Source of the DNA: Entophlyctis helioformis
Taxonomy: Eukaryota > Chytridiomycota > Chytridiomycetes > Chytridiales > Chytriomycetaceae
Length of the DNA stretch: 64,000 nt
Direction of reading: 5' to 3'
NCBI GenBank assembly: GCA_025526915.1
Contig: JAHLKH010000007.1
Span: 124,001-188,000, forward strand
The position numbers and the translations under genes are program-made. Below are positions 9,951 through 44,435 of this stretch, piece after piece (position 1 is the first letter of the stretch; every line of letters starts with the position of its first letter). Under the pieces are notes generated by a model that was not told the DNA's origin, made no database searches, and saw only the letters and a list, made by a program, of their open reading frames with translations.

Positions 9951-11221
9951 GTGGACAGATTGACGAGCACCTGATCGCCTCTTTCGAGACGCAGATCGCT
10001 GCTGGTCAATCTGTCCCAATCGTCGTCTATGGTCTCCTTTCTCTTTTGTTTCCTTTTGTGTGCCGATCAGCTTGGCTTGCATTGAAATCTCTGCCGTGCT
10101 TAATGCCAAGAATACGAAAGCATGTTGGCTCGCCAGATCTGACTGGCAGTTGGTCGTCGAGGTGGACATGGCTGGTGCCGATGGCTTGCTTGACTGAGAT
10201 GGAGGAGCACCGCTCACGCTGGCTGCATTGCGAGTACCACGCAGCATCTGCAGAGCATCGAGATGGCTGCGGATAGCGGCCGGATCCGTCACTCGCACAT
10301 TGTCCATCCTGCTGCATGATGTGCGATCACTGCCACATTGAGCAATGGGCTGCTCGAGAAGGGCCGAGTGGACATGGCAGATGGCAATCCAACCAACAGC
10401 GATGGGATGCAGCAGGCTGGCGAGACTGAGCCAGCGATTGCGCATGGTGATCTGGCACAGGCAAACGCATGATCAGGAACACATGCTGCTGCTTGCATGC
10501 ATCTCAATGCCGCGAAGCAGATGCAGGCTGCCATGTCAGCTCAGCTTGCAGGAACCGATCCAGATGGATCGGCTTACTGGCTATGCTGTCTACTTGGTCG
10601 TCACAGCCGAGCTCCTCTCTTCTGCCAAGCCGCCTGGCATGTATAGTGCGTGAGAGGACGGGCAAGCGGCACGATGCTGCACTGGATCTCAATGGGATCG
10701 TGCCACATCAGCTTGCGTTTGCATCAATGCCAATGTGAATGAGAACGGCTACAACGGCACTCTGTCCACCTGGCTCTGCTCACGAGACACTCGCTGTTGA
10801 ATGGAGCGATGGTAGCATCTGCGGACAGAGACGCAGCTGATGTGCATCGGTGTCTGCCCAGCCACAAAGCCAGCCGCGCTCAGCATCGACCAATGAGTCA
10901 TGCCGCATGCCATGCGCTGCTCCACTGCTGCGCTTGCATCAGCCAAGCATCGCAGCAGCCTGCATGCCGCCACTCGCAGATGCGCCAATGCACGGCGGCT
11001 GGGATCATCCACACATCGGCGGCACTCTCTCATCTGCGAGACGCGTCGCATCTATCAAAGGCAGCCGACTGTGTATCATCAAAGCGTGATCAGATCATCT
11101 GGCGAGTCCCGACTCAGACAACAAACAGGCACAGCACTTGCTCTGCAGCAAAAGGCGCTTGAGCATTCAGACTGGGTTCTCCCCATCTTCGAGACGAGCA
11201 ACAGCACCGACACCGACTACT
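9951..11221. other. Long intergenic region between orphan genes A and B; start of duplicated block
   Basis: No convincing gene. From about 10127 rightwards it is the outer part of the inverted duplication and has a diverged partner at 41088-42205. A minus-strand frame (start 10445, MRNRWLSLASLLHPIAVGWI) is also open in the partner copy at 41879, but neither its end nor its downstream sequence is conserved. The last 70 nt resemble the leader of gene A. Confidence 0.5.
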
Positions 11222-12934
11222 ATGCTCTCATTTCTCGTCTGCTCGCCGCCGTGCTCCTGGCGTGGGTGCCAACAACGGAGCCACCACCAACTCGTCGCAC
11301 GCTGTCCATCAGCTCGGGCACGGTCGTCTCCCGCGAGTGGCAGCCCTCGCTTGGCACTTCGGCCGTCGACTTCAACAACAACGTCGTCGTCGATGCCGAC
11401 AGCAGCACGGCCGTGACTGTCTTTCCGCCCAGTGCGCTTGAAAGCATCGACAACGACGACAACAACGACGACGACGCGGTCGCCGCTCTGCAACACTCGC
11501 GGACCAACAGTCGGCCAGCACGCCTCCACACGAACAGGAAGGCATCAGCGTCAGCCTGTCCCTCGCAACTGTAGGTCTCGTGCTTCATGCTTTCGCTCGT
11601 CACTCTGTCTGCTGCTGTCTGTTGTTCTGACGCAGCATCATCAGATGCATCCGATGATTGTGCGTCCATGCATTCTGCCTGCCGTTGATGGCGTCGAGAT
11701 CTTTGTCGGGACAAGCGGGTCGACACATGCGCGGGGACCGACGGACGCGTGGGATTATTGGATCGACACGCTCGCGGCCGCCGCCCTTCTCATCGAACGC
11801 GTTGTGATCGAACACTTCGAATCATTGATTATCATCGCGGTCATGATCATCGGCTTCAGCTATCTGGCGATGCAGACCAACTCCGACCGACTCGCCGCCG
11901 CTGCCGTCGCCGCCAAACACAAGGCCGAAATCAATCTGATCAAGCAGTCGCTCGTCCGACAACGTGAAGAACTCGCCGCTGAACACAAGCGCGAGGTCGA
12001 CCTACTCAAGCTCGAACTAGTCGAACACACCGAACACCTCGCCGCCCTTCGAACATCATGGGCCGACAACCAACATGAACACGAGAAGGAGCTCGGCATC
12101 GCCCGCCACTCGTGCGCGAAAGGCCACCTCTCCCTCAAGCAAGCCTTCAACCAGCTCCGCACGGAGTGGTCCAACGACCGGGACGTCCTCATCAAGGGTC
12201 TCGGCGTCGTGGCAGACGGCATCGTCAGCCTGCGCGAGGCCCAGGAGACCGGGTTCGATTCGTTGCGCGACGCGGCATTGGCCGACAAGACAGCGGTCCT
12301 TCGCGACCTCAAGGAAGCCGACAGCATCCTCGCCAAGATGCTCAAGATCCAGCTGCTCGACCGCGAGTCGCTTGCGTCGGCCATCGCCAGACAGTCCGAG
12401 GACAAGGTCAAGTTCGAACACGAACTCAAGGAGCTTCGGGCCCAAGTCGACTCTGTCGTTGGCTTGGTTGAAGACGTATGGACCGACGTGGTCGCGTCGA
12501 TGCCGATCGAAGCCGCCGCCACCTCGCCACCGCCACTCGCCACCTCGGACGTCGCCAAGTCGCCGGTTCCTCCCAAGGGCAGCGCCGCTTCTTTGGACGT
12601 GTCTGCTCATGGAGCACGGTCCTCGATCGCCCACTCTAAGAGTGTCGTAGATCAGGACTGGTGCCCTCGAGCGGACCGCACCCAAAGAGTCAAAGCCCCT
12701 CGCTGCACCATTGCAGTGGCACGGAGGTTCCCGGGCAGGTCAGGCGACGACCTCAAGGTCCACAAGATCCTGAAGCTCAAGCTGAAGAAGAACGTGTTTG
12801 TGGTCGAGTGGGTGACGGGTGGGCGGGATGAGGTGGATCCGAAGAGTTTCCCGCGTGCAGTGGTCAAGAAGTTGCTGACCGAGCACATGAGTCCATGGCT
12901 CACACCATGGGAGGTGGATGCGATCTACACATGA
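11222..12934 (+). CDS. Orphan family member B: signal peptide, TM and long coiled coil (frameshifted as assembled)
   Basis: Second member of the orphan family. ATG 11222 (MLSFLV) is followed after 16 nt by a one-base deletion relative to the right copy; the frame then reads LLAAVLLAWVPTTEPPPTRR, LSISSGTVVSREWQPS and an Asn/Asp-rich stretch. Another one-base loss near 11490 precedes exon 1's end. A 65-nt intron (11571-11635, GTAGGT...CGCAG) joins in frame to exon 2 (11636-12934), which is fully open. Exon 2 codes a TM segment (FESLIIIAVMIIGFSYLA), then ~200 residues of Ala/Glu/Lys/Leu-rich coiled coil (AAKHKAEINLIKQSLVRQRE ... ELKELRAQVDSVVGLVEDV), a Ser/Pro linker and a basic globular end (KILKLKLKKNVFVVEWVTGG ... 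PWLTPWEVDAIYT). Function unknown. Exon 2 is nearly identical to that of copy B'. Confidence 0.6.
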
Positions 12935-13050
12935 CCTTCCGCCGGTATTAAAGCGATGTTTCCCTCTTACTGTTGGTTCACTTGCATGCCAGAGATGCAG
13001 CCGAGTGGAAGTTGGCACACAGTTACGCAGTTGCCGAGCAGTTGGCACAC

Positions 13051-13878
13051 ATGGAAGCACATCAGAGGACACACACGATCGTGGTTGTGGTGATGGGCGT
13101 GGCCGGCTGCGGCAAGACGAGCGTTGGCCAGCGACTGGCACGCTGCATGGCTGGCGGCTCGCAGTTCATCGATGCAGACGACCACCACCCGCCGTCCAAC
13201 ATTGCCAAGATGCGCAGCGGGCAGGTGTGTGCCTGCAGCGTCTGTGCTTGTGCTGGTGGGTCTGGCTGACCGTCCATGCTGCGGTTGCAGCCGCTGAGCG
13301 ACGCAGACCGCATGCCATGGCTGCAGCGGCTGTGCGATGCTGTCAACGACGCATTGACGGCCCCCAAGCCGCCAGCGGACGCCACCACCAGCAGCACCAC
13401 CACAACCAGCAGCAGCATCGCCAGCAACAGCAATGCAGTTGTGCTCGCCTGCTCGTGCCTGCGCAAGATCTACCGCGACACGCTGCGCAGCGGGATCGTG
13501 TGCGACGTGCTGCGGTTCGTCTTCCTGGCCGTCCCTCGCGACGTTGCTCTGCTGCGGGTCGCCAGCCGTGCGGGCCACTTTATGCCGGCAGCCTTGGTGC
13601 ACAGCCAGTTTGCGACGCTCGAGGTGCCTGCGTCTGTCTGTCCGTCGCAGTGCACACCGACGGCAGCACACACAGCGGCAGATCTGCCCGTCGGTAGCAG
13701 CAGCCGTGCCACCAGCGGCAACGACGAAGAAGCAGATGTGGTTGCAGTCGACGCATCGCTGCCCATCGACGCTCTCTGCGACGCAGCCGCAGCCTCCCTC
13801 GCAGCCTCCATCGCAGCAACTCCATGGGCACCTCGCCCGTCTGCGATCGCAGCCAGCCGCACAGCACCAGCGCCATGA
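13051..13878 (+). CDS. Gluconokinase (GntK-type, shikimate-kinase-like P-loop kinase)
   Basis: Phosphorylates D-gluconate to 6-phosphogluconate with ATP, feeding the pentose phosphate pathway; cytosolic. Two exons, 13051-13224 and 13291-13878, give 253 residues. The Walker A loop GVAGCGKT is at 16-23, followed by the gluconokinase substrate motif DADDHHPPSNIAKM and, across the intron, PLSDADRMPWLQRL, which together distinguish it from shikimate kinase. Later CSCLRKIYRDTLR corresponds to the family's CSALKRxYRDxLR. Odd features: a Thr/Ser-rich insertion (~residues 92-105) and a long low-complexity C-terminal part (after ATLEVPASVCPSQ) replacing the usual short end. An upstream in-frame ATG at 12973 is less likely. 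The gene is duplicated, in degenerate form, on the right arm. Confidence 0.85.
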
Positions 13879-13987
13879 ACGGTTTGTGTGCTCATCGTGC
13901 AGCGTCTTCCAGCGTCTTCCAGCCATTTTCCACTTCCCGCACTCTTCCAAAACCCCGCCACCGCACAGCCCGCCGCTCACGCACACA

Positions 13988-14949
13988 ATGCTCGCACCTC
14001 TCGCCACCATCGCAGCCGCCGCCTCGCTTGCTCTGGGTGCCCACGCACAGCTGCTCGTCCCCGACGTCGTCAACGAAGTGCCGCAGGAGTGCTTTGTCGA
14101 CGCCGCGGCCCCCGTCTGCTCGGACAAGCCGGTGTTCATGTTCGATGCCATCCGCTCCATGTGCCGCCTGGTGGCGCCTGCGCAGCCGATGACGCTGGAC
14201 GCTCGCTGCGAATCGTACCGCGGCGCTCTGCCCTTCTTCGAGGTGTGTGTGTGTGTGTGTGTGCGTGTGTGTGTGTGTGTGTCTGCGTATCTGCCAGCCA
14301 GCCAGCCCACCTCCTGTCCTGGCCGATCTGCCTGCCTGCCTGCCTGCCTGCCTGTGCTCGCTCTTCCGATCTCCTGCCAGCGCCTTCATGACACACACGA
14401 GCACACGCTGACACATTTTCTTTCATCGCATCAATCCGTGTGGCTCTTCGCATGATTTTCCATTGATACTCGGGCCATGTGACACATCTGTGCGTGCACC
14501 GCCTCCGTCACAATCCATCTCGCGGCGGCGCTCTGTCCATGCACCAATGCCAACCACCAACCACCAACACACACCGCACAGAGCATCGAGCAGTGCCGCT
14601 CGACCTGCCTGCCTGCACGCAACGTCAACGACGGCAACGGCCGCACGCACACGGACCTGTCCGAGGGCATCACGTGCGCACAGGGTCCGTGTGCTCCTGG
14701 CGAGATCTGCCTTGACGTGAAGCGATCGTGCTTCATGAGCCCTGTAAGTCGGTGCTGGCATGTTGCCTGTCGCTCATCCAGACTCTCTGTGGCACTCTCT
14801 GTCGCACACTCTGATGACCGCCTGGCTGACTCGGGTGACACCGCTTGCAGTGCCCGCAGTTCACCTGCTACGCTCCCGTGCCAGACATGTCTGCCAAGCG
14901 TCTCGGCCGCATCCGTCTGAGCAAGAACCGCCAGTCGACTGGCAACTAA
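13988..14949 (+). CDS. Small secreted Cys-rich protein, unrecognised
   Basis: 171 residues from three exons: 13988-14242, 14582-14743 and 14851-14949. A clear signal peptide (MLAPLATIAAAASLALGAHA, cleavage likely after AHA) precedes a Cys-rich mature part with about ten cysteines (ECFVDAAAPVCSDK, CRLVAP, CESYRG, EQCRSTCLPAR, ITCAQGPCAPGEICLDVKRS, SCFMSPCPQFTCYAP). The protein ends in a basic tail. The spacing does not match a family I know; an apoplastic or cell-wall protein is plausible. Intron 1 is 339 nt and contains a (GT)n run followed by (CTGC)n and CCAACCAC repeats; intron 2 is 107 nt. AATAAA at 15071-15076. A degenerate copy lies on the right arm. Confidence 0.7.
14243..14360 (+). repeat. 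(GT)n and (CTGC)n microsatellites inside intron 1 of the Cys-rich gene
   Basis: About 40 nt of near-perfect GT dinucleotides start at the splice donor itself, followed by CCAG and CTGC tetranucleotide runs near 14292-14352. The right-arm copy has a shorter, interrupted version, so the tract is length-variable. Confidence 0.85.
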
Positions 14950-15283
14950 CTTATGCAACTCGCACGCACTCTCTTTGCTCTGCCGTCTCTGGCCGCCATC
15001 ATCCCGCACGCCGTATTCTATCTCATGCGACCACTCTCTGTTCCGCTCGAGTGCGTCTGCCACACTGCCCAATAAACGCATCCATCGCATTGCTGACAGC
15101 AAGGTGGACAGCTTGAGGAACAGCACCAAGAGCACCAAGAGCACCAAGAGCACCTTGAACAGCTTGAACAGCAGGAAGACAAGAAGATGATATCAATTCA
15201 CAAGAAAGAACAACAGCGGGAAACATGAAAGGGACAGTCGCGCATGCCGGTCTGGGACTGCTCTGGTGAGACGCAGCCGCAGA
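14950..15283. other. Intergenic region with poly(A) signal and GAGCACCAA tandem repeat
   Basis: 3' region between the Cys-rich gene (plus) and the patatin gene (minus), which converge here. AATAAA at 15071-15076 is followed at about 15118-15170 by four to five copies of a 9-mer (GAGCACCAA) and then TTGAACAGC repeats. The right-arm copy has a contracted repeat. No gene seen. Confidence 0.6.
15071..15076 (+). promoter_or_regulatory. Putative AATAAA polyadenylation signal
   Basis: AATAAA 122 nt after the stop of the Cys-rich secreted gene; preserved in the right-arm copy at 37256-37261 (minus strand). Confidence 0.5.
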
Positions 15284-17752
15284 TCACGGACGCTTGTTGA
15301 ACAGCAGAGCCGTGAGGTTGCCCTCGGACACGTGCTCGCGCAGCCAGCAACGGGCATCGCAGTAGCCGTCTTCAAACAGGCGGTCCATGGCAGCAGCATC
15401 GTGCGATGGCAGCAGTTGCTGTGCACCCGGGTGCCGCGCACCATCTTTGGAGTCGGGCTGGACTGACGGGCAGATGTTGGTTGCATTGGGGCGTGTGCCA
15501 ATGGTGACGGTGAGGGAATCGAGCACAGGCGTGTTGTTGGAGAGACCGCCGTCCATGTACACGCGGCCCTGCAGCTTGACGGGTGTCTCGTAAACAAGGG
15601 GGACAAAGCACGTCGCAAGCAGATGATCGACAAGGTCCTGTTGCACATTGCAGTTCTCATTAGTTCCTGGTCGACAGACGGTTGTCATCATGCTAGTCAA
15701 CCCAGGCTCACCTCGCGAGAATCGTAATGGCTTGCGATGCGGTTCGTCATACTGGGAAACTCGGTCAGCGAGATGCACAGCCGGCTTTGTGCCATGGACA
15801 CATCGCTTGGCAGGAGCGCCTCGATCATTCCACGGAGCATCTCGGACATGACCGAAAAGGGGCCAAGGAGCCTGGTGGAAGTAACCATGGACACGTCCTT
15901 GAGGGCATCCTTGAGACGCATCAGGTCCATGTCGAGAGCAAGAGCAGTCGCGACGAGAGCACCAGTAGACGCGCCGAGGAACAGGCATTCGTCCATGAGA
16001 TGCGGCTTGATGTACTCCTTGAGACAGCGTGCAACACCGAGTTCGTAGAACACGAGCCACGAGCAGCCAGAGAACGAGAACGAGAGCTTGGTAGGCGGCG
16101 GTGGAGACAAGAAGGACAGCGACGAGACGGATCGTCTGCTGCTGGATGCGCTGTTGAAGCCTCCGCCAAGGCTGCTGACGCTGTTCATGCTGCTGAAGCT
16201 GCTGTACGTGCCGTACCCAATGCCCGTGGAGACGTTGCTGAAGCTGGGACGGAATCCTTGCAGAGCGTCCTTGGATGCACCGACAAAGGGAACGGCGGCG
16301 GGGACCTCGGTCGACTTGGTAAACGAGTCTGCAAGGCTCGATGCAAACGGCAGACGCGAAACAATGCTCGCTGCCGCAGCCGATGCAGCCGACAAGAGCC
16401 CGTCGCGGTATTCGTACAGGTGCTGGTACTGGCGGTTGGCTGGCTGGGGCTGAGGCTGACGCTTTGCGCGGCGGCCTCTGCTGGATGTCGACGACGAGGC
16501 ATACGACGCACGCGACGACGGCCTGGACGGCATCTCATCGGCAACCGTCGACGGCGACCCGGGGCTGGACGCTGGCGACAGCAAGACTGGCGTGGCAGCG
16601 CGTGTGGGCAGGTCATTGGCAGTGTGGGAATCGGCCAGAGTGTCGGAGGATGCAGACGAGATGGGGGGCTGCGCAGGCTGTTGTGCGGGCTTGCTGCCGC
16701 TGAAGCCGAGGTATCGCGAGAAGCGGCCAACGATGGGGATCTTGTCGACACGCGCGGGCAGCGCATGCAGGAAGTGCACCGCCGACGGCTCGACCGAGTC
16801 TGAGATGGACTGCGTGATGTTGGACGCGGTGTTGAGGGCAGATCCCGCCAGGCAGGCGGACATGAACAGCGCCTTTGAGCCCAGGCCGGCAAGGGCAGAG
16901 TCCTGCGTCTGCGACGAGTCTGTCGGGACGGCATTCCCAGCGCGCGTGTTGTGTTAGTGGGCGTGCGTGTATGTGCTAGCGGGCATCGCATGCGAGAAAG
17001 TGCCCTGGCGCAGCTGCACCGTTACGTCATCACGTGCGGATGGCGGCCAAGGCGTGAATCTCAATGCACGTGAGAGCGGAGGGCAACTCACAGGTCAGCG
17101 GACGGCCGAGCACGATCGAGCGCTGCGACTGCAGCGACGCCTGCGTGGACGCCGACGACAGGAACGGCAGCGCAAAGAGCGGCGTGCGGCTGGCCAGGGC
17201 CGCGGTCGCAGCGGTCGCAGCCGACACCGCCGACACCGCCGACGCAGCCGACGCAGCCGACGCAGCCGACGCAGCGGCCGACGAGGCGATGCTGACGTCG
17301 CTCAGCTGGGTGCCAACGGATGATGCGCGGGGTCGGAGCGGGCGAGGCGGCGATGCAGCAGGTGCCGATGAGACCGAGCCCGAGCCCGAGCCGGGGGCGG
17401 CGAGTGCGAACGCCTCGGCGGCGGGTGGGACGGCGGGCTGCTGCATCACGGCGTCGATGAAGGCGGCGGCGTCGGCAGTCGAGACGGCCACGACCGAGGG
17501 CGGCACGGCTGCAAGGACATCTGCTGCTGCTGCTGACGATGCTGCTGCTGCAGAAGCTGCCAGCAGATCGACATCGTCAAAGCCGTCGCTGGTGCTGGTG
17601 CGAGTGCTGGTGCTGGTGCTGGTGCCTGCGCTCGTGCGCGTGCTGGCGATGCTGCTGCGGCTGCCTGCCACCGACGCCACGAGCGTGAGCGTCGATGCCT
17701 CTGAGCCGATGGCCGCCAGCTGCTGCTGCTTTGTCGGTTCCTTCAGATGCAT
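15284..17752 (-). CDS. Patatin-like phospholipase / triacylglycerol lipase
   Basis: Patatin-fold Ser-Asp dyad lipase. Three exons, 17752-17092, 16919-15712 and 15655-15284, give 746 residues. The N-terminal ~480 residues are low complexity: polyGln, Ser/Thr repeats, polyAla/Ser-Ala runs and a Ser/Pro region. The patatin domain begins about LSFSFSGCSWLVFYELGVAR, with nucleophile elbow GASTG (Ser ~538) and the catalytic Asp in DGG (~658, YMDGGLSNN). The oxyanion loop is SGCSW rather than the common GGGxRG, which resembles the SFSGCGFL loop of ATGL/PNPLA2-type lipases. That points to an acylglycerol lipase, possibly lipid-droplet associated (inference). The start is only 22 bp from the presumed start of the divergent CTL gene. 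The final ~48 nt of the CDS are included in the duplication. Confidence 0.85.
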
Positions 17753-17774
17753 GTCGGTTAATTGAAGACGCGCG

Positions 17775-20406
17775 ATGTTGGAAAAACGGCCTCTCTCCAC
17801 AATAAGAGAGCCGACGGCAAAGTGGCGGACCACATCTACCTTGCTCCGAACCAGCAGCCAAGCCACTCGCGCCAGCCAAGCCAGCAGCAGCAGCAGCAAC
17901 AGCAAGCACCGCAGGGCCACTCTCGCAACCCATCCGCAGTCTCCAACGCCAGCCACTCCAAGGCAGCCAGCAGCAGCCACAAGCGCGGAAAGAGCGCGTC
18001 GAGCAGCACAAGTAACAACATGGGACGCCGAGACAAGGTCCAACCTGCCAACGATGGCGAGATTGAGGGTATGGCTGCTGCCGGTGGCCGGCCCGTGGGC
18101 ATCGTCAAGAAACGCAAGTGCCGCGATGTCATCTTCCTTGTCATCTTCATCGTCTACTGGGTCGGCATGTTCATCATTGCTGCTTCTGCCGTCGCCTCTG
18201 GAGATCCCCGTCGCCTCATGTGAGTAGGTTGTGTCTTTTGTGTTGTTGCCTGACGCGTTCTCCCCCATGTCGCACCTCCTCTGCTCGTTCATGTGTTGCT
18301 TGGCTGCCCGCCTGCTGTTGATGCTGTCTGTCAACGACCCTGTGCCTCGCAGCGCACGTGATGCCTGCGAGAGCATCGGCGGCTGTCCAGACTGCCGTCT
18401 CCATGCGAGCCGTCTCTCCCTACTTCCCATGTCATGCAACCAACCAGCTGGCCGGCTGAGCCCCCAACGACCCGTCTTGCCTTGCTTACACAACACGCGT
18501 CTGGCTGTCGTCCTTGACGCGTTCTCCAGTTCTCCCCTCGACTACAACAACCAGTACTGCGGCTTCAACAACACGGCGACAAACAGCTCTCAGCTGGACC
18601 TGAGCAAGAAACCCTACCTCTACTTCCTCGATCCAATCAGCTTGGCCGTCGGTGTCTGTGTCACTGAATGCCCAACCGCCACTGCCCTGACCACCACCTC
18701 CACATCCGTCATCTGCAAGTACAGTGCCGCACCGACATCAAGCAACGTTGCGTCGCTCATCGCAGCCGGCACATGCAGCACTTATGTCTACAAGTCGTCA
18801 CCGGTCCTCAACCGCTGCACGCCGCTTGATGCGATTCCGACAAGCTTGATTGACCAGACGAGCTCGGCCGGCAACACGACTGTCAGCAACGACAACATCC
18901 TCACCTCTGGCCGCAGCTATGCCATGCAAGTGCTCACCGATCTCACCACAACATGGCCGGTTCTCGCAACGTTTGCCGCCATATCGCTCGTCATCTGCCT
19001 CATCTGGATGTTCCTCCTGCAGTGGCTCGCTGGCTTGTTTGTGTGGTTCACTCTGATAGCTACCAACGCCGTGCTCATTGGCACGAGCATCTGGCTCTAC
19101 TTTTACTGGCAGACCAAAAACACAGCGTACACCACATCCGGAGCCACAAGCGCAACGCCCGGCTCGGTGACCATCCTGGCGCAAACAACCTCGGCGCAAA
19201 ACGAGGTCACGGCTGCGCTGGTTGCGTTTATTGTCTGCGCCATCATTGCACTCGTGATGCTGCTCGTCACGATTGCCCTCCTCAACCGCATCCGTATCGC
19301 CGTGCAGATCATCAAAGAGTCGAGCCGCGCGCTCATCTCCATGCCCCTGATTGGTAAGCCGCTTTCCCTTGCCGCTCATTCATGCATTTCGTGCAGGTGC
19401 ACGGCTAACGCTGGACATTGCAACGCGGCCAGTGCTGTTCCCGATGTGGATCTACGCATTTATCGCTGGCCTCATGGTGTACTTTGTCATCATCCTGCTC
19501 TATATCATCACGCCGTCAGGTCCAGTGTCGATCTCGGTCATCAACCAAGTCTACACCGACCCCAACATCAGCCAGCAGATGCTTTGGTACCATCTCGCCG
19601 GCTTCATCTGGGGTTTCACCTTCCTCGTGGCCATCAACCAAATCACGATTGCCGGCGCAGTGGCCGAATGGTACTGGCTCCGCGACAAGTCCACTCGCAA
19701 GCGGTTCCCCGTGCTGCGGTCGTTTGCGCGCGTGTGCCGCTACCACCTCGGCTCGGTGGCGCTCGGATCGCTGCTGCTCACCATTGTCGAGCTGATCCGC
19801 GTGGTTCTGTGGCAGCTCCAGCGCTATGCCAAACGCACGCACAACAAGACCATGCAGTATTTCGTCGCGTGTCTGCAGTGCTGCCTGAAGTGCTTCGAAG
19901 TCATTCTCAAGTTCATCAACAAGAACGCGTACATTTACATTGCCATCACGGGAAAAGCCTTCTTCAAGGCCGCCTCGGAGGCATCGTCGCTGCTCATCCG
20001 CAACGCACTGCGCCTTGCAACAGTCGACTTTGTGGCAGACTTTGTGCTCTTCCTGTCCAAGCTGTTTGTCACGGTGCTGTCGGCGTTTCTGTCGTACCTG
20101 TGGCTGACGTACCGCACAGATCTCTACGGCAGCGTCAAGTTTCCGTTCATCACGGTGCTGCTGGTCGGCGTGGAGGCGTACATGGTGTCGACGGCCTTCT
20201 TTTCCGTGTTCAATCTGGCCATTGACACCATCTTCCTGTCGTTCTTGGAGGACTCTGAGAAGAACGACGGCTCGGCCGAGCGTCCGTTCTACATGAGCGA
20301 CAACCTTCGACGCATTATCGGCAAGACAGAGGCCAGCGAGCCCAATCAGTCCAAGCGCGGCAAAGGCAACGGCAACAACAAGGCCGTCGTGGTCAACGAG
20401 TTTTAA
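17775..20406 (+). CDS. CTL/SLC44-type choline-transporter-like protein (PNS1 family)
   Basis: Multi-pass plasma-membrane protein of the choline transporter-like family. Exons ~17775-18219, 18530-19353 and 19397-20406 give ~759 residues. After a Gln/Ser-rich cytosolic N-terminus come KKRKCRDVIFLVIFIVYWVG (TM1), a Cys/Asn-rich extracellular loop with N-glycosylation sequons (FNNTATNSS), and about nine further TM segments, with conserved FINKNAYIYIAITGKAFFKA and FVADFVLFLSKLFVTVLSAF. The latter two stretches are diagnostic. ATG 17775 (MLEK) joins the polyQ frame only if one A is missing from the A-run at ~17783; otherwise the first ATG in frame is 18020. Intron 1 is unusually long (310 nt). Head-to-head with the patatin gene. 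Confidence 0.88.
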
Positions 20407-20517
20407 ATCTGTCCCGCAGTCTCTGGTCGTGATTTCCAACCGTCCCAACCCATCATCATCCGTCGTGCTTCGCAACAATGCAGGGGAATTCCAAACAGTG
20501 CCATGTATTGCCCCTGT

Positions 20518-22770: not shown

Positions 22771-22858
22771 TCGTTCTGGTTGCCGAAAGCCGGACAAGAT
22801 CTGGGCTGGTCAACTTCGGACACACCGTTCATTCGCAAACAGGACACGATGGGAGGGA

Positions 22859-24156: not shown

Positions 24157-24257
24157 GCTGCGTGACTGTCTGCGGGTCTAGCGTGTCGTCTTCAGAGCGC
24201 GTTGTGCAGTTGGGCAAAAACACATTTCATTCGTTTCGAAGATGGCAGTGGCAGCTG

Positions 24258-30715: not shown

Positions 30716-30848
30716 TGTCGCCGTCTGGTCGGTGCCTTGTTGGTGTGTGGCCAAAGCCCGCGTCTTATAATGGCGGCCTGTGGCATTGTGGGCGTGAACG
30801 GTCGCCATCACATCCCTTGCACGTCGCATTGCGTATCGCGTCTTTGCA

Positions 30849-30943
30849 GGCACTCGACTGATCCACTCGACTGATCCACTCGACTGATCCACTCGACTGA
30901 TCCACTTGACTGATCCACTCGACTCATCCACTTGACTGATCCA
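30849..30943 (+). repeat. 13-bp tandem repeat (ACTCGACTGATCC)n
   Basis: About seven head-to-tail copies with a few transitions (CTCG to CTTG, CTGA to CTCA), immediately upstream of the 2,053-residue gene. Confidence 0.88.
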
Positions 30944-30963
30944 CCCGAGTGCGACTCACTCTG

Positions 30964-30969
30964 TTTATT
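30964..30969 (-). promoter_or_regulatory. Putative AATAAA polyadenylation signal of IFT52
   Basis: AATAAA on the minus strand about 55 nt after the IFT52 stop codon. Confidence 0.5.
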
Positions 30970-31024
30970 CCAGCTCGCATCTCGCCCGCCAACTCACTCC
31001 TTCCGCCACAACAGCCCGGGCGGC

Positions 31025-33099: not shown

Positions 33100-33611
33100 G
33101 GGAGCTTTGGGCCAGCGTATCGCACCATGGCCAAAGCGTCAGCAGGCTGCGTGAACGACGAGTGGACGACACACATCTGCGAGCATGCCACCAACCTTGA
33201 CTGTTGTGTGACCCGCTGGATGGAGGATGGATGGCGAGGTTCTCTTTTAATGATGTTGGACGTGGATGGATGGCATCTAGTCACGTGCCATATCACGTGA
33301 CCAGTTTTCCATCCGGCAACTTCCAACTTTTTTTTCGAATTGGAGATCCGATCAACGGCCAAGAATCGCATTCGTGTGGGTTGCATTGATCGCACATGTG
33401 CGTCGGCTGGCCGTCCGCGCAAGCGGCTGGCTCTTTGGGCCTGACATGGCATGGCATGGCACGCTGACTCTTCTGCCTTGGGCAGCACAGTATCGATGAG
33501 CTGCTCAAGGAGACTCGTTGCACAGCTGGCCCGCTCGCTTGGTGCATCGCCCGCACTGGCCGCACCAGCCATGCCTTGTGCGCACACCCCCATGTACACT
33601 CTGGCCGCATC
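33100..33611. other. Divergent intergenic region IFT52 / PPR gene
   Basis: About 510 bp between the two start codons. Contains CACGTG-like cores (CACGTGCCATATCACGTG at ~33282-33299), i.e. two E-box-like hexamers close together, and a T8 run near 33330. No gene seen; the start of the PPR gene may lie in this region if it has another upstream exon. Confidence 0.4.
33282..33299. promoter_or_regulatory. Paired TCACGTG-type motifs in divergent promoter
   Basis: Two CACGTG/TCACGTGA-like palindromic cores, about 12 bp apart centre to centre, between IFT52 and the PPR gene. CACGTG is a known binding core of bHLH factors in fungi (established knowledge); use here is inference. Confidence 0.3.
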
Positions 33612-36052
33612 ATGTCTGGCGCTGGCAGCATCACCATCCCGCCGCATCCAAGGCAGAAACTCCAGCTCGGCATCGCAGCCGGGCGATGGCGGCAACAGAA
33701 GCAAGCCGGCAGCCACCAAGACCGGCCGCTCCAGACGCAAGGTGATGCTGATGCTGCCGTTTGTCGCAAAGGGCCAAGACAGCAGCCAAGGCCTGCCTCG
33801 GACCATGCCGATTCCAACGACGACTCGAACGCTGGCCTCAACCAGTTCATCCGATCGCGCAGACAACGGCAAGACGACAGCCAGTACTCGGCACCCAAGC
33901 AGCGGTCGCTCGAAGTCCGAGAGCCCGACCTGGACGGCTTCTTTGCAGCGATCGAGTCCCAGGACCGAGTGCCTGCCTGGCTCAAGTTCCGCGACATCGC
34001 CTACGATGCCAACGCTCGCGCCAGCCTCACGACAACGCATCTCGTCGACCTGATGAAGCTGCTTGGCAAGCACAAGCCGCCGCTCTTCTCGTCGATGCGC
34101 GAGGTCATTGACACTGCGCAGCAGATGGGCATGCCCCGCACGCTGGACATGTACACCACGCTGATGCGTGCGCACGGCCGTATGGGCGATATGGATGGCG
34201 CGACCCGTGTGCTTGCCGATCTCAAGGCGGCGGGACTGCCTGTGACGATTGCCATCCACAACGAGTTTATTCGGATAGCTGCCAAGCAGGTCAACCTGGC
34301 GACTGCCGAGCGCATGGCCGAGGATGTGGTGGGGCAGGGGATCTCGCTGGACGCGGACACGTACACGACACTCGTGTCCGCGTGTGTGGATGCCGGGCTG
34401 TTTGACAAGGCGCAGATGTATCTGGATCGGTGCGCGAACGAGGGCGTGGCCTGGAGCTCAGATCTGCGGCGGCAGGTGCTGCGCATGAACTTCAAGCAAG
34501 GGAATCTGGAGGCTGCGCGGAAGGCATGGCTCGATATGCAGGATCTGCGAGCCGAGCCGGATCGTGCGCTTTGCTCGGTGTTTATTGACGGGTTCTCGAG
34601 CACGGGCGATGTCGCAACGGCTCAGCAGGTTGTGCAGTGGATGACGGCAAACGGCGTGGTGCCAGAGCCTGGTGCTTTTTTGCCGCTTGTCAAGGCTCTG
34701 GCGACGACGGGTGATGTGCATGGCGCCATGAAGTTCATCTCGACCATGGAGACGCTCCAGGGCCGCTTGGACATGTCGCTCTACTACGGCATCATCAACG
34801 GCGCGTGCCAGGCGGGCCACATTGACGACGCACTGGACATTGTCGAAGGCCTCAAGTCGCGCAGTGTCCGGCCGCCACTCACCATGCTGCGCTCGATCTT
34901 CGCTGGTCTGGTCGAGGCTAAGCGTGCCAACGAGGCGTACGCACTCTTTGACGAGATCCAAGCCGATGGCTACGAGGTTTCGCTGGATGTCTACAACGTC
35001 ATGCTCAAGGCTGCCAGCCAGCTGCATGATCTGGACATGATCCGCAACATCTGGAAGCTCATGCGGATGAACGACAAGCGCATCACGCCCGACGCTGCGG
35101 CGTACATGACAACCTTCAAGGCGTATGTAGCCGCGCACGACGTCGAGGCAGCATTCAAGATGTGCGAGGAGATGATTGCCAGCAGTTTCGAGCCCGACGT
35201 CAACTCGCTGCTTCTGCTCATTCACGCATGTGTGCGTGCCCGCAAGTACGCAAGCGCCATCCAGGCGTTGTGTGGATGCGGCGGTCACATGCTGCTCGCG
35301 ATGCCGATCTGCGCGCGGTCATGGAACAGTATCGCAAAGAGTTTGAGGACCTCATCTTTGCGCTGGCCAAGGAGAGCCAGGCCGCGGCTGCAGCGGCTGC
35401 AGCAGAAGCACAGAGTAGCGAAACAGTCCAGCTGGATGGACGCGGAAGGGCTATCCTTGTGGCTGCACCGGCCGAGCAGAACCAGGCTATCGGCGATGCA
35501 GGCAAGCGCAACAGCCTGATCATCGACCTGTACAAGGAGCTTGTTAACGCCGGGATCACGCCCAGCGAGAAGGCGCTCCAGGAGGTCATGCGCGTGCACT
35601 GCCAGCTGCGCGATCTGGTTGGTGTCGTCAAGGTGTGGACCACGCTCCACAAGTCGTACCCACAGCCGTCGGCCGAGTCGGTCACTGTTCTGCTGAATGC
35701 GACGAGCGAGCTCGGCCTGCAGAAGACGGCACAGGCTGTCAAGACGATGGTCGAGAAGGAGTCGCTGCCGCTTAATGCAGACGGCCACGAGGCCCTGATT
35801 GTCATGTACGCGCGGTGTGGCATGTCTGAGCTCGTCATTCACGCCATGGTCGATATGGTCGAGGCTGGATTCCCGCTGACGACGGCGCTGTACCGCCGCG
35901 TCAAGCATGCTGTTGACCAGCAACGGCCACGCAAGCCGGCCGTCCGCAAGGCGATCCAGGATTTCGTCGAGGAGCAGTTCCCCGAGATTGTGACCGAAGA
36001 CGAGAGCATCGAGATGGCAGACCAGAAGTTCCGGCTGTCGCTCATCCCCTAA
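33612..36052 (+). CDS. Pentatricopeptide-repeat (PPR) protein, probably mitochondrial; one base missing
   Basis: Long helical-repeat RNA-binding protein. Reads from ATG 33612 (MSGAGSITIPPHPRQKLQLG, possible targeting region rich in Arg/Gln/Ser) through about 13 PPR-like ~35-residue units: TLDMYTTLMRAHGRMGDMDG, DADTYTTLVSACVDAGLFDK, MSLYYGIINGACQAGHIDDA, SLDVYNVMLKAASQLHDLDM and AAYMTTFKAYVAAHDVEAAF. Near 35270 the frame slips by one (ASAIQAL then WMRRSHAARDADLRAVMEQY) and continues to the stop at 36052, so one base is missing. The total is ~813 residues. Fungal PPR proteins act in mitochondrial RNA processing, stability or translation; which transcript is targeted cannot be told. The first ~60 residues overlap an alternative frame starting at 33593 that looks more like a presequence, so the true N-terminus is uncertain. 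Confidence 0.8.
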
Positions 36053-36160
36053 TCTGGTTTCCAGTGATGCGGCCTGTGGCTGAATGAATTGGAGAGAACG
36101 CTGCGCTATGTACAGGCTGACGGCTGTTCAATGGGAAGTGTTCAGGGATCTACGGCCGCA

Positions 36161-36869
36161 TCATGCCCACACGAGCTTTGTGGACTTTGCGGCAGCGTCG
36201 ATGGCGTTGGCCAGCTGGATGTCGCGCACTGAGAGACCGCCGCAGTCGTGCGTCGACAGCGTGATCTCGACGCGGTTGTAGACGTTGAACCACTGCCAGC
36301 CAGCCAGCGAGACAGTCAGCCCGTCAGAGCATCACAGCCACGGCATGATCGGTGTAGGCGTTAGTTCGTCCGTCCGTCCGTCCGTCTGTTCTCTGCCAGA
36401 CTGTTCAAGCATACCTCTGGGTGGTGGTTCATCTACCGTGCAGCGATCGTTCCAGACCAAAGCGAGAGTGAGCTTTGGATAAGATGGACAGGCAGGCAGA
36501 CAGACGGCTCTGCAGACGCACCTTCTCGGCAACGATGGCCACGTGAGACATGAAGCCAAAGGCGGCGGGAAAGTCCTGGAACTGGAACTGCTTGCAGATG
36601 GCGTCGCGGCCCTCGACAAGCTCCCAGTCGCCGCTGCCGTCCACGAGCGGCTTGAGCAGCGTCTCGCGCTGCTCGGGCGTCAGCGCCTTGGGTGTCTTGG
36701 ACGTCGTGTAGCTGCGGCTAGTGGCCGCTGCTGAGGTGCCGAGCACCGTTGCTGCCAGGGAAGTTGGCATGGTGGTGGCCGTGAGCAGCGGCATGCGAGG
36801 CAGCTGTGAACGCAGCTGCAGGCCGGCTCTTGCCGCACTTGCTCGCACCAACAGAGCAGACCGAAGCAT
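36161..36869 (-). CDS. Pterin-4a-carbinolamine dehydratase (PCD/DCoH), mitochondrial-targeted, with 18-nt microexon
   Basis: Dehydrates 4a-hydroxytetrahydrobiopterin and recycles pterin cofactor. Exons 36869-36522, 36432-36415 and 36292-36161 give 165 residues. An Arg/Ser/Ala-rich N-terminus ([20 protein letters not shown]) suggests mitochondrial import. The PCD domain reads [50 protein letters not shown], then MNHHPE from the 18-nt exon, and [20 protein letters not shown]. The catalytic His pair HHPEW is thus split over the microexon and exon 3. Without the microexon the enzyme would lose its active site. The frame is intact. The start lies ~160 bp from the right edge of the inverted duplication, which appears to have been inserted into this gene's upstream region. 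Confidence 0.88.
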
Positions 36870-37029
36870 TCTGGCCAGCACATCATGCCATGACCAACGA
36901 GTCAGCAGCCAGCCTGGACAGCCGGTGAACGACGCACATCAACGAGCTTGCAACCAAACAGACCCAGATTAGTTTGTGACTGGCAGGTCAATCTGATGTA
37001 CCAGATGGAGAACATAGCCAGGTGGCAGC

Positions 37030-37077
37030 CGTGTCCGAGGGCAACCTCACGGCTCTGCTGTTCAACAAGCGTCCGTG
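37030..37077 (-). pseudogene. Truncated 3' fragment of the patatin gene
   Basis: Reproduces only the last ~15 codons and stop of the patatin-like lipase at 15284-15332 (ending NLTALLFNKRP), on the minus strand. Upstream sequence is unrelated. It is a passenger of the duplication and cannot encode a lipase. Confidence 0.88.
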
Positions 37078-37255
37078 ATCTGCGGCTGCGTCTCACCAGA
37101 GCAGTTCCAGACCGGCATGCGCGACTATCCCTTTCATGTTTCCCGTTGTTGTTCTTTCTTGTGAATTGATATCATCTTCTTGTCTTCCTGCTGTTCAAGC
37201 TGTTCAAGGTGCTCTTGGTGCTGTCCACCTTGCCGTCGGCGATGCAATGGATGCG

Positions 37256-37261
37256 TTTATT
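37256..37261 (-). promoter_or_regulatory. Duplicated AATAAA polyadenylation signal
   Basis: Minus-strand AATAAA, the copy of 15071-15076 downstream of the Cys-rich gene. Confidence 0.45.
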
Positions 37262-37382
37262 GGGCAGTGTGGCAGACGCACTCGAGCGGAACAGAGAGTG
37301 GTCGCATGAGATAGAATACGGCGTGCGGGATGATGGCGGCCAAAGACTGCAGAGCAAAGAGAGTGCGTGCGAGTTGCATAAG

Positions 37383-38325
37383 TTAGTTGCCAGTCGACTG
37401 GCGGTTCTTGCTCAGACGGATGCGGCCGAGACGCTTGGCAGACATGTCTGGCACGGGAGCGTAGCAGGTGAACTGCGGGCACTGCAAGCGGTGTCACCCG
37501 AGTCAGCCAGGTGGTCATCAGAGTGTGCGACAGAGGGCCAGAGGTCTGGATGAGCGACAGGCAACATGCCAGCACCGACTTACAGGGCTCATGAAGCACG
37601 ATCGCTTCACGTCAAGGCAGATCTCGCCAGGAGCACACGGACCCTGTGCGCACGTGATGCCCTCGGACAGGTCCGTGTGCGTGCGGCCGTTGCCGTCGTT
37701 GACGTTGCGTGCAGGCAGGCAGGTCGAGCGGCACTGCTCGATGCTCTGTGCGGTGTGTGTTGGTGGTTGGTGGTTGGCATTGGTGCATGGACAGAGCGCC
37801 GCCGCGAGATGGATTGTGACGGAGGCGGTGCACCACAGATGTGTCACATGGCCCGAGTATCAATGGAAAATCATGCGAAGAGCCACACGGATTGATGCGA
37901 TGAAAGAAAATGTGTCAGCGTGTGCTCGTGTGTGTCATGAAGGCGCTGGCAGGAGATCGGAAGAGCGAGCACAGGCAGGCAGGCAGGCAGGCAGGCAGAT
38001 CGGCCCAGAAGGTGGGGCTGGCTGGCTGGCAGATACGCAGACACACCACACACCACCACACACACACACACCTCGAAGAAGGGCAGAGCGCCGCGGTACG
38101 ATTCGCAGCGAGCGTCCAGCGTCATCGGCTGCGCAGGCGCCACCAGGCGGCACATGGAGCGGATGGCATCGAACATGAACACCGGCTTGTCCGAGCAGAC
38201 GGGGGCCGCGGCGTCGACAAAGCACTCCTGCGGCACTTCGTTGACGACGTCGGGGACGAGCAGCTGGCGTGGGCACCCAGAGCAAGCGAGGCGGCGGCTG
38301 CGATGGCGGCGAGAGGTGCGAGCAT
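37383..38325 (-). pseudogene. Right-arm copy of the Cys-rich secreted gene, frameshifted in signal peptide
   Basis: Exons 38325-38072, 37745-37584 and 37481-37383 keep the splice sites and the exon 2 and 3 lengths of the left copy, and the protein text is nearly the same (MLAPLAAIAAAASLALGAHA, CRLVAPAQPMTLDARCESYR). Exon 1 is 254 nt instead of 255: one base is missing after GAHA, so the mature part is out of frame. The intron 1 microsatellite is shorter and interrupted. It may be a true pseudogene or an assembly indel; conserved exons 2 and 3 favour recent inactivation or error. Confidence 0.7.
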
Positions 38326-38434
38326 TGTGTGCGTGAGCGGCGGGCTGTGCGGTGGCGGGGTTTTGGAAGAGTGCGGGAAGTGGAAAATGGCTGGAAGACG
38401 CTGGAAGACGCTGCACGATGAGCACACAAACCGT

Positions 38435-39257
38435 TCATGGCGCTGGTGCTGTGCGGCTGGCTGCGATCGCAGACGGGCGAGGTGCCCATGGAGTTGCTGC
38501 GATGGAGCGGCGAGGGAGGCTGCGGCTGCGTCGCAGAGAGCGTCGATGGGCAGCGATGCGTCGACTGCAACCACATCTGCTTCTTCGTCGTTGCCGCTGG
38601 TGGCACGGCTGCTGCTGACTGGCAGATCTGCCGCTGTGCGTGCTGCTGTCGGTGTGCACTGCGACGGACAGACAGACGCAGGCACCTCGAGCGTCGCAAA
38701 CTGGCTGTGCACCAAGGCTGCCGGCATAAAGTGGCCCGCACGGCTGGTGACCCGCAGCAGAGCAACGTCGCGAGGGACGGCCAGGAAGACGAACCGCAGC
38801 ACGTCGCACGCGATCCCGCTGCGCAGCGTGTCGCGGTAGATCTTGCGCAGGCACGAGCAGGCGAGCACGACTGCATTGCTGTTGCTGGCGTCGTTGTCGT
38901 TCTTGTCGTTGTCGTTGCTGGTGGTGGCGTCCGCTGGCGGCTTGGGGGCCGTCAATGCGTCGTTGACAGCATCGCACAGCCGCTGCAGCCATGGCATGCG
39001 GTCGGCGTCGCTCAGCGGCTGCAACCGCAGCATGGACGGTCAGCCAGATGCACCAGCACAAGCACAGACGCTGCAGGCACACACCTGCCCGCCGCGCATC
39101 TTGGCAATGTTGGACGGCGGGTGGTGGTCGTCTGCATCGATGAACTGCGAGCCGCCGGCCATGCGGCGTGCCAGTCGCTGGCCAACGCTCGTCTTGCCGC
39201 AGCCGGCCACGCCCATCACCACAACCACGATCGTGGTGTCCTCTGATGCGCTTCCAT
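38435..39257 (-). pseudogene. Right-arm copy of gluconokinase, two frameshifts
   Basis: Exons 39257-39085 and 39018-38435 parallel the left copy. One base is lost just after the start (AGGACACCACG instead of AGGACACACACG). Translation could still begin at the internal ATG of VVVVMGVAGCGKTS, leaving the P-loop intact. A second one-base loss near 38505 replaces the C-terminus. The Thr/Ser insertion of the left copy has become Asn/Asp-rich (ATTSNDNDKNDNDASNSN). Kinase core residues (DADDHHPPSNIAKM, PLSDADRMPWL, SCLRKIYRDTLR) are kept. Classed as a probable pseudogene, with the caveat about single-base assembly errors. Confidence 0.65.
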
Positions 39258-39355
39258 GTGTGCCAACTGCTCGGCAACTGCGTAACTGTGTGCCAACTTC
39301 CACTCGGCTGCATCTCTGGCATGCAAGTGAACCAACAATAAGAGGGAAACATCGC

Positions 39356-39361
39356 TTTATT
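39356..39361 (-). promoter_or_regulatory. AATAAA overlapping the stop codon of orphan gene B'
   Basis: Minus-strand AATAAA that overlaps the TAA stop of copy B' (CGGCAATAAAGC). The left copy has TATTAAAGC here, so the signal is specific to the right arm. Confidence 0.4.
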
Positions 39362-41087
39362 GCCGACGGAAAGTCTTGTTGTAGATCGCATCCACCTCCC
39401 ATGGTGTGAGCCATGGACTCATGTGCTCGGTCAGCAACTTCTTGACCACTGCACGCGGGAAACTCTTCGGATCCACCTCATCCCGCCCACCCGTCACCCA
39501 CTCGACCACAAACACGTTCTTCTTCAGCTTGAGCTTCAGGATCTTGTGGACCTTGAGGTCGTCGCCTGACCTGCCCGGGAACCTCCGTGCCACTGCAATG
39601 GTGCAGCGAGGGGCTTTGACTCTTTGGGTGCGGTCCGCTCGAGGGCACCAGTCCTGATCTACGACACTCTTAGAGTGGGCGATCGAGGACCGTGCTCCAT
39701 GAGCAGACACGTCCAAAGAAGCGGCGCTGCCCTTGGGAGGAACCGGCGACTTGGCGACGTCCGAGGTGGCGAGTGGCGGTGGCGAGGTGGCGGCGGCTTC
39801 GATCGGCATCGACGCGACCACGTCGGTCCATACGTCTTCAACCAAGCCAACGACAGAGTCGACTTGGGCCCGAAGCTCCTTGAGTTCGTGTTCGAACTTG
39901 ACCTTGTCCTCGGACTGTCTGGCGATGGCCGACGCAAGCGACTCGCGGTCGAGCAGCTGGATCTTGAGCATCTTGGCGAGGATGCTGTCGGCTTCCTTGA
40001 GGTCGCGAAGGACCGCTGTCTTGTCGGCCAATGCCGCGTCGCGCAACGAATCGAACCCGGTCTCCTGGGCCTCGCGCAGGCTGACGATGCCGTCTGCCAC
40101 GACGCCGAGACCCTTGATGAGGACGTCCCGGTCGTTGGACCACTCCGTGCGGAGCTGGTTGAAGGCTTGCTTGAGGGAGAGGTGGCCTTTCGCGCACGAG
40201 TGGCGGGCGATGCCGAGCTCCTTCTCGTGTTCATGTTGGTTGTCGGCCCATGATGTTCGAAGGGCGGCGAGGTGTTCGGTGTGTTCGACTAGTTCGAGCT
40301 TGAGTAGGTCGACCTCGCGCTTGTGTTCAGCGGCGAGTTCTTCACGTTGTCGGACGAGCGACTGCTTGATCAGATTGATTTCGGCCTTGTGTTTGGCGGC
40401 GACGGCAGCGGCGGCGAGTCGGTCGGAGTTGGTCTGCATCGCCAGATAGCTGAAGCCGATGATCATGACCGCGATGATAATCAATGATTCGAAGTGTTCG
40501 ATCACAACGCGTTCGATGAGAAGGGCGGCGGCCGCGAGCGTGTCGATCCAATAATCCCACGCGTCCGTCGGTCCCCGCGCATGTGTCGACCCGCTTGTCC
40601 CGACAAAGATCTCGACGCCATCAACGGCAGGCAGAATGCATGGACGCACGATCATCGGATGCATCTGATGATGCTGCGTCAGAACAACAGACAGCAGCAG
40701 ACAGAGTGACGAGCGAAAGCCTAAGCACGAGGACCTACGTTGCGAGGGACAGGCTGTCGCTGAAGCCTTCCTGTTCATGGGAGGCGTGCGGGCCGACTGT
40801 TGGTCCGCGAGTGTTTGCAGAGCGGCGACCGCGTCGTCGTCGTTGTTGTCGTCGTTGTCGATGGTTTCAAGCGCACTGGGCGGAAAGACAGTCACGGCCG
40901 TGCTGCTGTCAGCATCGACGACGGTGTTGTTGCTAAAGTTGACGGCCGAAGTGCCAGGCGAGGGCTGCCACTCGCGGGAGACGACCGTGCCCGAGCTGAT
41001 GGACAGCGTGCGACGAGTTGGTGGTGGCTCCGTTGTTGGCACCCACGCCAGGAGCACGGCGGCGAGCAGGACGAGAAACGAGAGCAT
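39357..41087 (-). CDS. Orphan family member B' (right-arm copy): signal peptide, TM and long coiled coil
   Basis: From ATG 41087 the frame is open to the stop at 39357 (576 residues read straight through). It has signal peptide MLSFLVLLAAVLLAWVPTT, motif PPPTRRTLSISSGTVVSREW, an Asn/Asp-rich stretch, TM FESLIIIAVMIIGFSYLA, a ~200-residue coiled coil and a basic end. The last residues are IYNKTFRRQ instead of IYT in copy B. The ~65-nt intron inferred in B is here also open in frame, so retention or splicing both give a product, but the frame just before it (NRKASATACPSQRR) differs from that expected by comparison with gene A, so a one-base loss is likely. Exon 2 differs from B by about one base in 1.3 kb. 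Unknown function. Confidence 0.6.
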   Translation of the reverse strand: MLSFLVLLAAVLLAWVPTTEPPPTRRTLSISSGTVVSREWQPSPGTSAVNFSNNTVVDADSSTAVTVFPPSALETIDNDDNNDDDAVAALQTLADQQSARTPPMNRKASATACPSQRRSSCLGFRSSLCLLLSVVLTQHHQMHPMIVRPCILPAVDGVEIFVGTSGSTHARGPTDAWDYWIDTLAAAALLIERVVIEHFESLIIIAVMIIGFSYLAMQTNSDRLAAAAVAAKHKAEINLIKQSLVRQREELAAEHKREVDLLKLELVEHTEHLAALRTSWADNQHEHEKELGIARHSCAKGHLSLKQAFNQLRTEWSNDRDVLIKGLGVVADGIVSLREAQETGFDSLRDAALADKTAVLRDLKEADSILAKMLKIQLLDRESLASAIARQSEDKVKFEHELKELRAQVDSVVGLVEDVWTDVVASMPIEAAATSPPPLATSDVAKSPVPPKGSAASLDVSAHGARSSIAHSKSVVDQDWCPRADRTQRVKAPRCTIAVARRFPGRSGDDLKVHKILKLKLKKNVFVVEWVTGGRDEVDPKSFPRAVVKKLLTEHMSPWLTPWEVDAIYNKTFRRQ

Positions 41088-42280
41088 AGTAGTCGGTGTC
41101 GGTGCTGTTGCTCGTCTCGAAGATGGTGGGAAGCCCAGCCTGAATGCTCGAACGCCTTTTGCTGCAGTGCGAGTGCTGTGCCTGTTTGTTGTCTGTGAAC
41201 GGGTCTCGCCAGATGATCTGATCACGCTTTGATGATGCACAGTCGCGTTGCCTTTGATAGATGCCGACGCGTCTCGCAGATGAGAGAGTGCCGCCGATGT
41301 GTGGATGATCCCAGCCGCCGTGCATTGGCGCATCTGCGAGTGGCGGCATGCAGGCTGCTGCGATGCTTGGCTGATGCAAGCGCAGCAGTGGAGCAGCGCA
41401 TGGCATGCGGCATGGCTCATTGGTCGATGCTGAGTGCGGCTGGCTTTGTGGCTGGGCAGACACCGATGCGCATCAGCTGCGTCTCTGTCCACAGACGCTG
41501 CTGTCGCTCCATTCAACAGCGAGTGTCTCGTGAGCAGAGCCAGGTGGACAGAGTGCCGTTGGATGTCCGTCGTCACATTCTCATTCACATTGGCATCGAT
41601 GCAAACGCAAGCTGATGTGGCACGATCGCATTGAGACCCAGTGCAGCATCGTGCCGCTTGCCCGTCCTCTTACGCACTTTACATGCCAGGCGGCTTGGCA
41701 GAAGAGAGGAGCCCAGATGAGACGACCAAGTGGCCATCATCGCCAGTAAGCCGATCCATCTGGGGCGGTGCCTGCAAGCTGAGCTGGCAAGGCAGCCTGC
41801 ATCTGCTTCGCGGCATTGAGATGCGTGCAAGCAGCAGGCATGTGTTCCTGATCGTGCGTTTGCCTGTGCCAGATAACCATGCGCAATCGCTGGCTCAGTC
41901 TCGCCAGCCTGCTGCATCCCATCGCTGTTGGCTGGATTGCCATCTGCCATGCCCACTCGGCCCTTCTCGAGCAGCCCATCGCTCAATATGGCAGTGATCG
42001 CACACCATGCAGCAGGATGGACAATGTGCGAGTGACGGATCCGGCCGCTATCCGCAACCATCTCGATGCTCTGCAGATGCTGCGTGGTACTTGCAATGCA
42101 GCCAGCGTGAGCGGTGCTCCTCCATCTCAATCAAGCAAGCCATCGGCACTAGCCATGTCCACCTCGACGACCAGCTGCGAGCCTCTTGGCCAGATCTGGC
42201 GGGCCAGTTGCAATTTTCCCCAAAACCAACCTTCGGCACGCGCTCGGCGGTTCAACGACTCCCCAACCTCATTAGTACAT
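41088..42280. other. Upstream region of B' and junction with verprolin
   Basis: Diverged copy of 9951-11221 up to ~42205; beyond that ~75 bp of unique sequence precedes the verprolin start. A plus-strand frame opening at 41879 (MRNRWLSLASLLHPIAVGWI) runs in frame into the verprolin start at 42281 and could add 134 residues if transcribed. No other gene seen. Confidence 0.45.
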
Positions 42281-42749: not shown

Positions 42750-42785
<36 letters not shown>

Positions 42786-44208: not shown

Positions 44209-44435
44209 ACGCGGAGAGCAGCGAGTGCGCGTGTCTGCTGTTCTCGCTGTCTCTCGCTGTCTCTCGGTCACTCGCTCGCTCCCACGCCTGACCTCTTGCG
44301 TTGATTGTCTCTTCCCACCCGCTGCCACAATGAACCCCATCATCGTCATCGTCATTGAGTGGCATCTACAGCGCATCATCCATAATTAATTACACAAGTG
44401 TCTCATCGCATCCCGTCTCATCCCATCCCATCGCA

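Follow-up and report, generated by a model that had tools for sequence, protein, structure and literature searches.

The window analysed here, 64,000 nucleotides corresponding to bases 124001-188000 of contig C7 (281334 bases) of Entophlyctis helioformis, includes two inverted copies of a three-gene block that probably arose by a DNA-level segmental duplication of the left arm (A) into the right arm (B), in opposite orientation, with subsequent ectopic gene conversion. The locus is best read as one of an already known kind, a segmental duplication whose copies gene conversion has kept partly alike. All comparisons were made within one assembly of one isolate (genome 29.57 Mb, 482 contigs); the portion of PMC11797018 cited here names JEL805 of E. 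helioformis, citing Amses et al. 2022. Positions without a prefix are those of the window.

Organization of the arms

Comparison of the window with itself by BLAST aligned 10146-15336 with 42178-37027 (96.355% identity over 5213 columns, 107 mismatches, 40 gap openings, E=0), which bears out the inverted homologous arms of the original prediction, with the limits given in Table 1. The next longest self-matches listed, of 219 and 247 bp at 76%, belong to the same coiled-coil family that is described below. The global MAFFT alignment of the arms has 5209 columns with 140 substitutions and 21 gap events; B is the reverse complement of A with an overall difference of about 4%, and the predicted distance of 21.7 kb between the arms was confirmed. 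Inversion of the DNA between them is possible in principle. Segmental duplications are stretches of at least 1 kb with an identity of at least 90%, and A and B, with 5213 columns at 96.36%, fall within this definition. The part from the gluconokinase to the lipase gave long matches only in A and B in a whole-genome DNA search, a simple-repeat stretch aside, and is therefore not a high-copy repeat.

At the base level, the string CGCCAGATCTG takes the common edge of A and B slightly past the end of the BLAST match, and the lipase-side edge of B is located 49 nt into the lipase gene. Since B ends in this tail of a gene that adjoins A, A is the probable source of B, as had been proposed from the shared sequence. 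The outer flanks of the arms differ, and B occupies a gap between divergent genes, one with a pterin-4a-carbinolamine dehydratase domain (− strand) and the other with a WH2 motif (+ strand). No second long copy of the flanks or interior was found in the assembly with the pieces 1-10100, 15400-25400, 25300-37000, 42210-52210, and 52200-64000, with two exceptions: the family matches of the tandem member in the piece 1-10100, and a multi-copy repeat at 63473-64000, where the window carries part of an element with 91-94% identity at four places and partial matches elsewhere.

Table 1. Location of the features of arms A and B and of their surroundings in the window.
Feature	Position	Strand	Basis or remark
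Tandem, more distant family member next to A	8928..9950	+	signal peptide, membrane segment, coiled coil by eye
Left arm A, probable source copy	10127..15336	+	self-BLAST, alignment, adjoining lipase gene
Shared left-edge string CGCCAGATCTG, arm A	10131..10141	+	11 bases; also in B and at C7:67790
Coiled-coil membrane gene, arm A	11222..12934	+	exon 1 from 11222, intron ~11571-11635, exon 2 11636-12931
Tract identical to arm B, arm A side	11660..12928	+	1269 bp; alignment
Gluconokinase gene, arm A	13051..13878	+	one intron; TIGR01313 2.7e-37; three PDB gluconokinase/gluconate kinase sequences
Cys-rich secreted gene, arm A	13988..14949	+	three exons, set by eye
Patatin-like lipase gene beside arm A	15284..16863	-	limits approximate, from open frames
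Pterin-4a-carbinolamine dehydratase domain, neighbour of B	36194..36686	-	domain scan
Degenerate copy of dispersed ~85-120-bp repeat	36866..36992		~35 bp from arm B inner edge
Right arm B, probable derived copy	37027..42201	-	self-BLAST, alignment; terminal 49 nt of lipase gene
Last 49 nt of lipase gene, end of arm B	37030..37078	+	alignment
Cys-rich gene, arm B	37383..38325	-	exon 1 has one-base gap vs A
Gluconokinase gene, arm B	38435..39257	-	lower end approximate; TIGR01313 1.3e-38
Coiled-coil membrane gene, arm B	39357..41087	-	exon 2 39360-40673
Identical tract, arm B side	39381..40649	-	1269 bp; alignment
Shared edge string CGCCAGATCTG, arm B	42191..42201	-	overlaps palindrome GCCAGATCTGGC at 42189-42200
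WH2 motif of gene on B's other side	42371..42448	+	domain scan

Several other elements were observed in the window and elsewhere in the assembly. The degenerate repeat near B and a second copy at 33110-33195 are 74% alike over 85 bp, and 38 of the 41 matches listed for the piece 25300-37000 fall on one of these two places, at 73-88% identity (39 of 76 candidates scored). An 808-aa open frame at 50519-52945 (+) includes a REJ domain (E 2.5e-14). The 64-kb window includes no tRNA or Rfam landmark. A 5-kb tandem array at C7:55515-60509 gives self-matches in a ladder, at spacings of mostly 39 bp. Loci L038-L041, on contig C472 and at the end of C150, form an inverted repeat about 8 kb apart; the repeat measures 636 bp (96%) in C150 and 920 bp (94%) in C472, and the two contigs are 99% identical over 840 bp.

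Genes of the block

Both arms have the coiled-coil gene, the gluconokinase, the Cys-rich secreted gene and the lipase tail in the same order, and domain matches and alignment confirmed the order of the three genes that had been predicted. The gluconokinases of A and of B score above the TIGR01313 cut-off; in arm B the frame is broken near both ends by single-base differences and the core is open. The introns of the gluconokinase and the Cys-rich gene (GT..AG by eye) are kept in both arms, which excludes a retrocopy. The Patatin profile matches the lipase beside A in two stretches, one above the cut-off (positions 141-188 of 191, 2.3e-09) and one below it (positions 2-61, 6.3e-05).

The coiled-coil product of arm A appears to have a signal peptide and a membrane segment, as judged by eye and with a low-confidence structure model (the AlphaFold models have mean pLDDT of 57 and 52). 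In its exon 1 the frame is interrupted near 11240 and 11491 by single-base breaks, possibly errors of the consensus. Protein relatives were absent at E 0.001 among about 8000 candidates scored, both with the 500-aa frame of arm A as query and with a 3-row exon-2 alignment. A Chromo-like C-terminus, guessed from a sequence pattern, was dropped, as Pfam gave nothing similar up to E 5 and Foldseek with the models gave no match at E 0.001.

Mosaic divergence of the arms

The original reading as a segmental duplication is supported, but it had missed the mosaic structure of the pair, together with the degenerate repeat near B and a gene family spread over contig C7. A run of 1269 identical base pairs, starting about 24 nt inside exon 2 of the coiled-coil gene and stopping 3 nt short of the end of the last sense codon in A, is flanked by DNA that differs by 3-5%. 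Such a run was reached in 0 of 20000 permutations, the largest being 499, or 830 when events within 10 columns were merged. The substitutions between A and B, counted by segment with gene borders approximate by a few nt, amount to 5.2 and 5.4% in two segments upstream of the coiled-coil gene and 5.1% in exon 1, and to 1 in 1290 positions of exon 2; the gluconokinase exons have 27/756, the Cys-rich exons 1/513, and introns and spacers 0 to 6.6%. Exon-2 dS is 0.003 for A/B, with one silent change in about 310 silent sites, and 0.142, 0.140 and 0.397 for A compared with three further family copies (A/C, A/D and A/E, defined below); values of this size imply that silent sites do change in the family. 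The marks of gene conversion, an overlong run of identity, diverged DNA on both sides of it and silent sites included in it, are all found here. The length of the run and the low silent divergence indicate a recent ectopic gene conversion between the arms, rather than the action of a mobile element, as the cause of the exon-2 identity.

That exon 2 is identical through strong selection after a plain duplication without conversion seems quite unlikely to us. The identical tract does follow the exon closely at both ends, and the Cys-rich exons are also nearly unchanged beside changed introns, an identity that purifying selection could give; selection on the protein, however, would leave silent sites unprotected, and it is at these sites that the arms have a single change while other copies differ from A by 0.14-0.40.

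Between the arms, noncoding DNA has diverged more on the 5' than on the 3' side, with 40/1076 versus 16/1083 isolated substitutions (p 0.001), or 57 versus 34 when all substitutions are counted (p 0.014). This could reflect exchange with other copies rather than greater age. In the part shared by six family copies B has 4 private substitutions and A has 23, and B has none in 453 upstream columns, so that the upstream part of B could be a blend of other copies.

The coiled-coil gene family

A duplicated pair had been predicted; the pair A/B stands, but it is not alone, since the coiled-coil part has further copies on contig C7. Besides A itself, long matches to this arm in the whole-genome DNA search were B, C7:274202-276582, C132:6727-9082, C7:67790-70422 and C347:12144-14788, and all 10 matches of a protein search with the coiled-coil gene fell in these six places, a number that is a lower bound. 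The family is spread over about 209 kb of C7. Contig C347 covers the same region as C7:56.6-74.0k, and C132:1-13855 the same as C7:267484-281333, where C7 ends, so that C347 and C132 appear to carry second versions of two family loci. We call the 274k copy of C7 and its C132 version C and D, and the 67.8k copy and its C347 version E and F. A, B and the 67.8k copy have the same left edge; the 274k copy begins at about 10755 (A coordinates). The homology to A ends on the right at about 12952 in E, at 13096 in C/D, which is 42-46 nt into the gluconokinase, and at 15332-15336 in arm B. Among the loci seen, the whole neighbourhood was found only at A.

Copy E has stops in exon 2 (177 codons are open) and differs from A at 98/1457 positions in its 5' part and 263/1195 in exon 2 (p 2e-30, from hand-summed counts), and by these counts is a chimera relative to A. 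Versions C and D differ at 81/970 positions in two adjacent 500-bp windows over the 5' half (9.1 and 7.6%), at 6/3492 in seven windows of 271484-274983 (0 to 1.2%), and by 0 to 3.4% in the other windows of the overlap. Exon-1 dS between these two versions of one locus (0.118) is near the level between loci (C/E 0.139). They have 27 (C) and 23 (D) private variants, and D is consequently not merely a blend of other copies. Within the gene, E and F also differ mainly in the 5' half (12/500 in one window); their largest difference lies outside it, 26/499 in an ankyrin-like frame, so this pattern of divergence is not limited to the coiled-coil gene. The ankyrin-like frame, at C7:70900-71899 and adjoining the 67.8k copy, is 2.8-5.2% different between C7 and C347, and C7:60400-67899 has 1 mismatch with C347 in 15 windows. 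Positive selection on exon 1 was unsupported: each of the six comparisons among C, D, E and F gave a dN lower than dS.

Mobile elements and assembly as alternative explanations

The original prediction that the block is not an ordinary DNA transposon is supported. No TE domain was found in six frames of 9950-11451, 33000-37500 and 42000-46500, or on the + strand of 12935-15400. Target-site duplications or terminal inverted repeats were sought at both arms; B gave at most a direct flank match of 5 bp and an arm-end inverted match of 6 bp, and A gave 6 and 6 bp, lengths that shuffled sequences reach in 15-56% of trials. Each edge stretch of B, examined singly, has no internal repeats. An element with one fixed and one variable end (one-ended transposition) would account for the way in which A, B and the 67.8k copy share the left edge CGCCAGATCTG but vary at the right end, and the string is part of a 12-base palindrome in B and in the 67.8k copy. 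We nevertheless consider it very improbable, as the six-frame scan of the 5' part of the arm and of the surroundings of B revealed no transposase or replicase domain, the edge matches are at chance level, the 274k copy has a different left end, and the coiled-coil gene was found in only six places, this being a lower bound. The palindrome was rejected as a specific signature: of its 24 occurrences in the genome, 3 are at family edges.

An assembly artefact, with B as the misplaced other allele of A or as a chimeric join, appears unlikely. C7 ends, and C132 starts, at a family locus, which marks the family as difficult for the assembler, and the second versions of two family loci on C347 and C132 and the few private variants of B point the same way. 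Several 500-bp windows of C7 and C347 have 0 mismatches and 1-3 single-base gaps; the single-base frame breaks in exon 1 of A and B and in the gluconokinase and Cys-rich gene of B partly resemble such gaps and may be consensus errors. They are not taken as proof of decay, and an interpretation as reciprocal decay of the two arms was withdrawn. On the other hand, an artefact needs two independent false joins, one at each end of B; the outer edge of B coincides with that of the third copy at C7:67790, which would not be expected of a chance break; A and B differ over most of their length, the exon-2 tract excepted; and divergent genes with recognisable domains flank B on both sides.

Possible mechanism and related systems

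A replication-type duplication is the simplest frame for these observations. A block from locus A would have been copied, inverted, into the intergenic gap 21.7 kb away, and later ectopic conversion between the arms would have overwritten the 1.27-kb exon 2 of the coiled-coil gene; similar exchanges may shuffle the 5' half of this gene among the family loci. Copying by break-induced replication primed in family sequence already resident at B is a more tentative proposal, to which we give somewhat less than an even chance. It would account for the sharing of the left edge, for the variation of the right ends and for the higher 5' divergence, the last of which fits either such priming or exchange with other copies. 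The candidate priming end would be the left edge shared by A, B and the 67.8k copy, with no junction microhomology demonstrated. A further proposal, which we think unlikely, is a two-module surface-protein system in which a 5' module (promoter, signal peptide and Asn/Asp-rich outer part) is exchanged among loci or alleles, the membrane-coiled-coil body stays uniform within a locus or arm pair, and the inverted arms serve as a partner pair for exchange.

The replication-based segmental duplications of budding yeast (BIR and MMIR; PMC2518615) are, in the portion cited, similar in that segments are duplicated without need for a transposase and junctions may fall in genes, making fusion genes; there the mechanism was shown by genetics, whereas the chytrid locus presents end products alone. 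In the cited part of a description of ectopic gene conversion among Aspergillus paralogs (PMC12844118), paralogs of one chromosome region likewise exchange sequence and some gene copies are broken; the chytrid case differs as an inverted pair with one identical 1.27-kb tract. The foldback inverted duplications of yeast (PMC10622511) also give inverted copies on a single chromosome, but as described in the cited section a foldback at a break leads to dicentric chromosomes, while the chytrid arms are separated by ordinary genes. Of 20 papers on chytrids, gene conversion and paralogs, 10 were judged by titles and the beginnings of abstracts, and none of these 10 treats a comparable chytrid locus; the locus itself was searched by organism name only.

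The frame breaks carry a warning, as those near recent duplications in the E. helioformis assembly may be consensus errors. The locus provides a concrete chytrid case of duplication with probable ectopic gene conversion and leads to a gene family in which the two versions of one locus are distinguished mainly by a single module.
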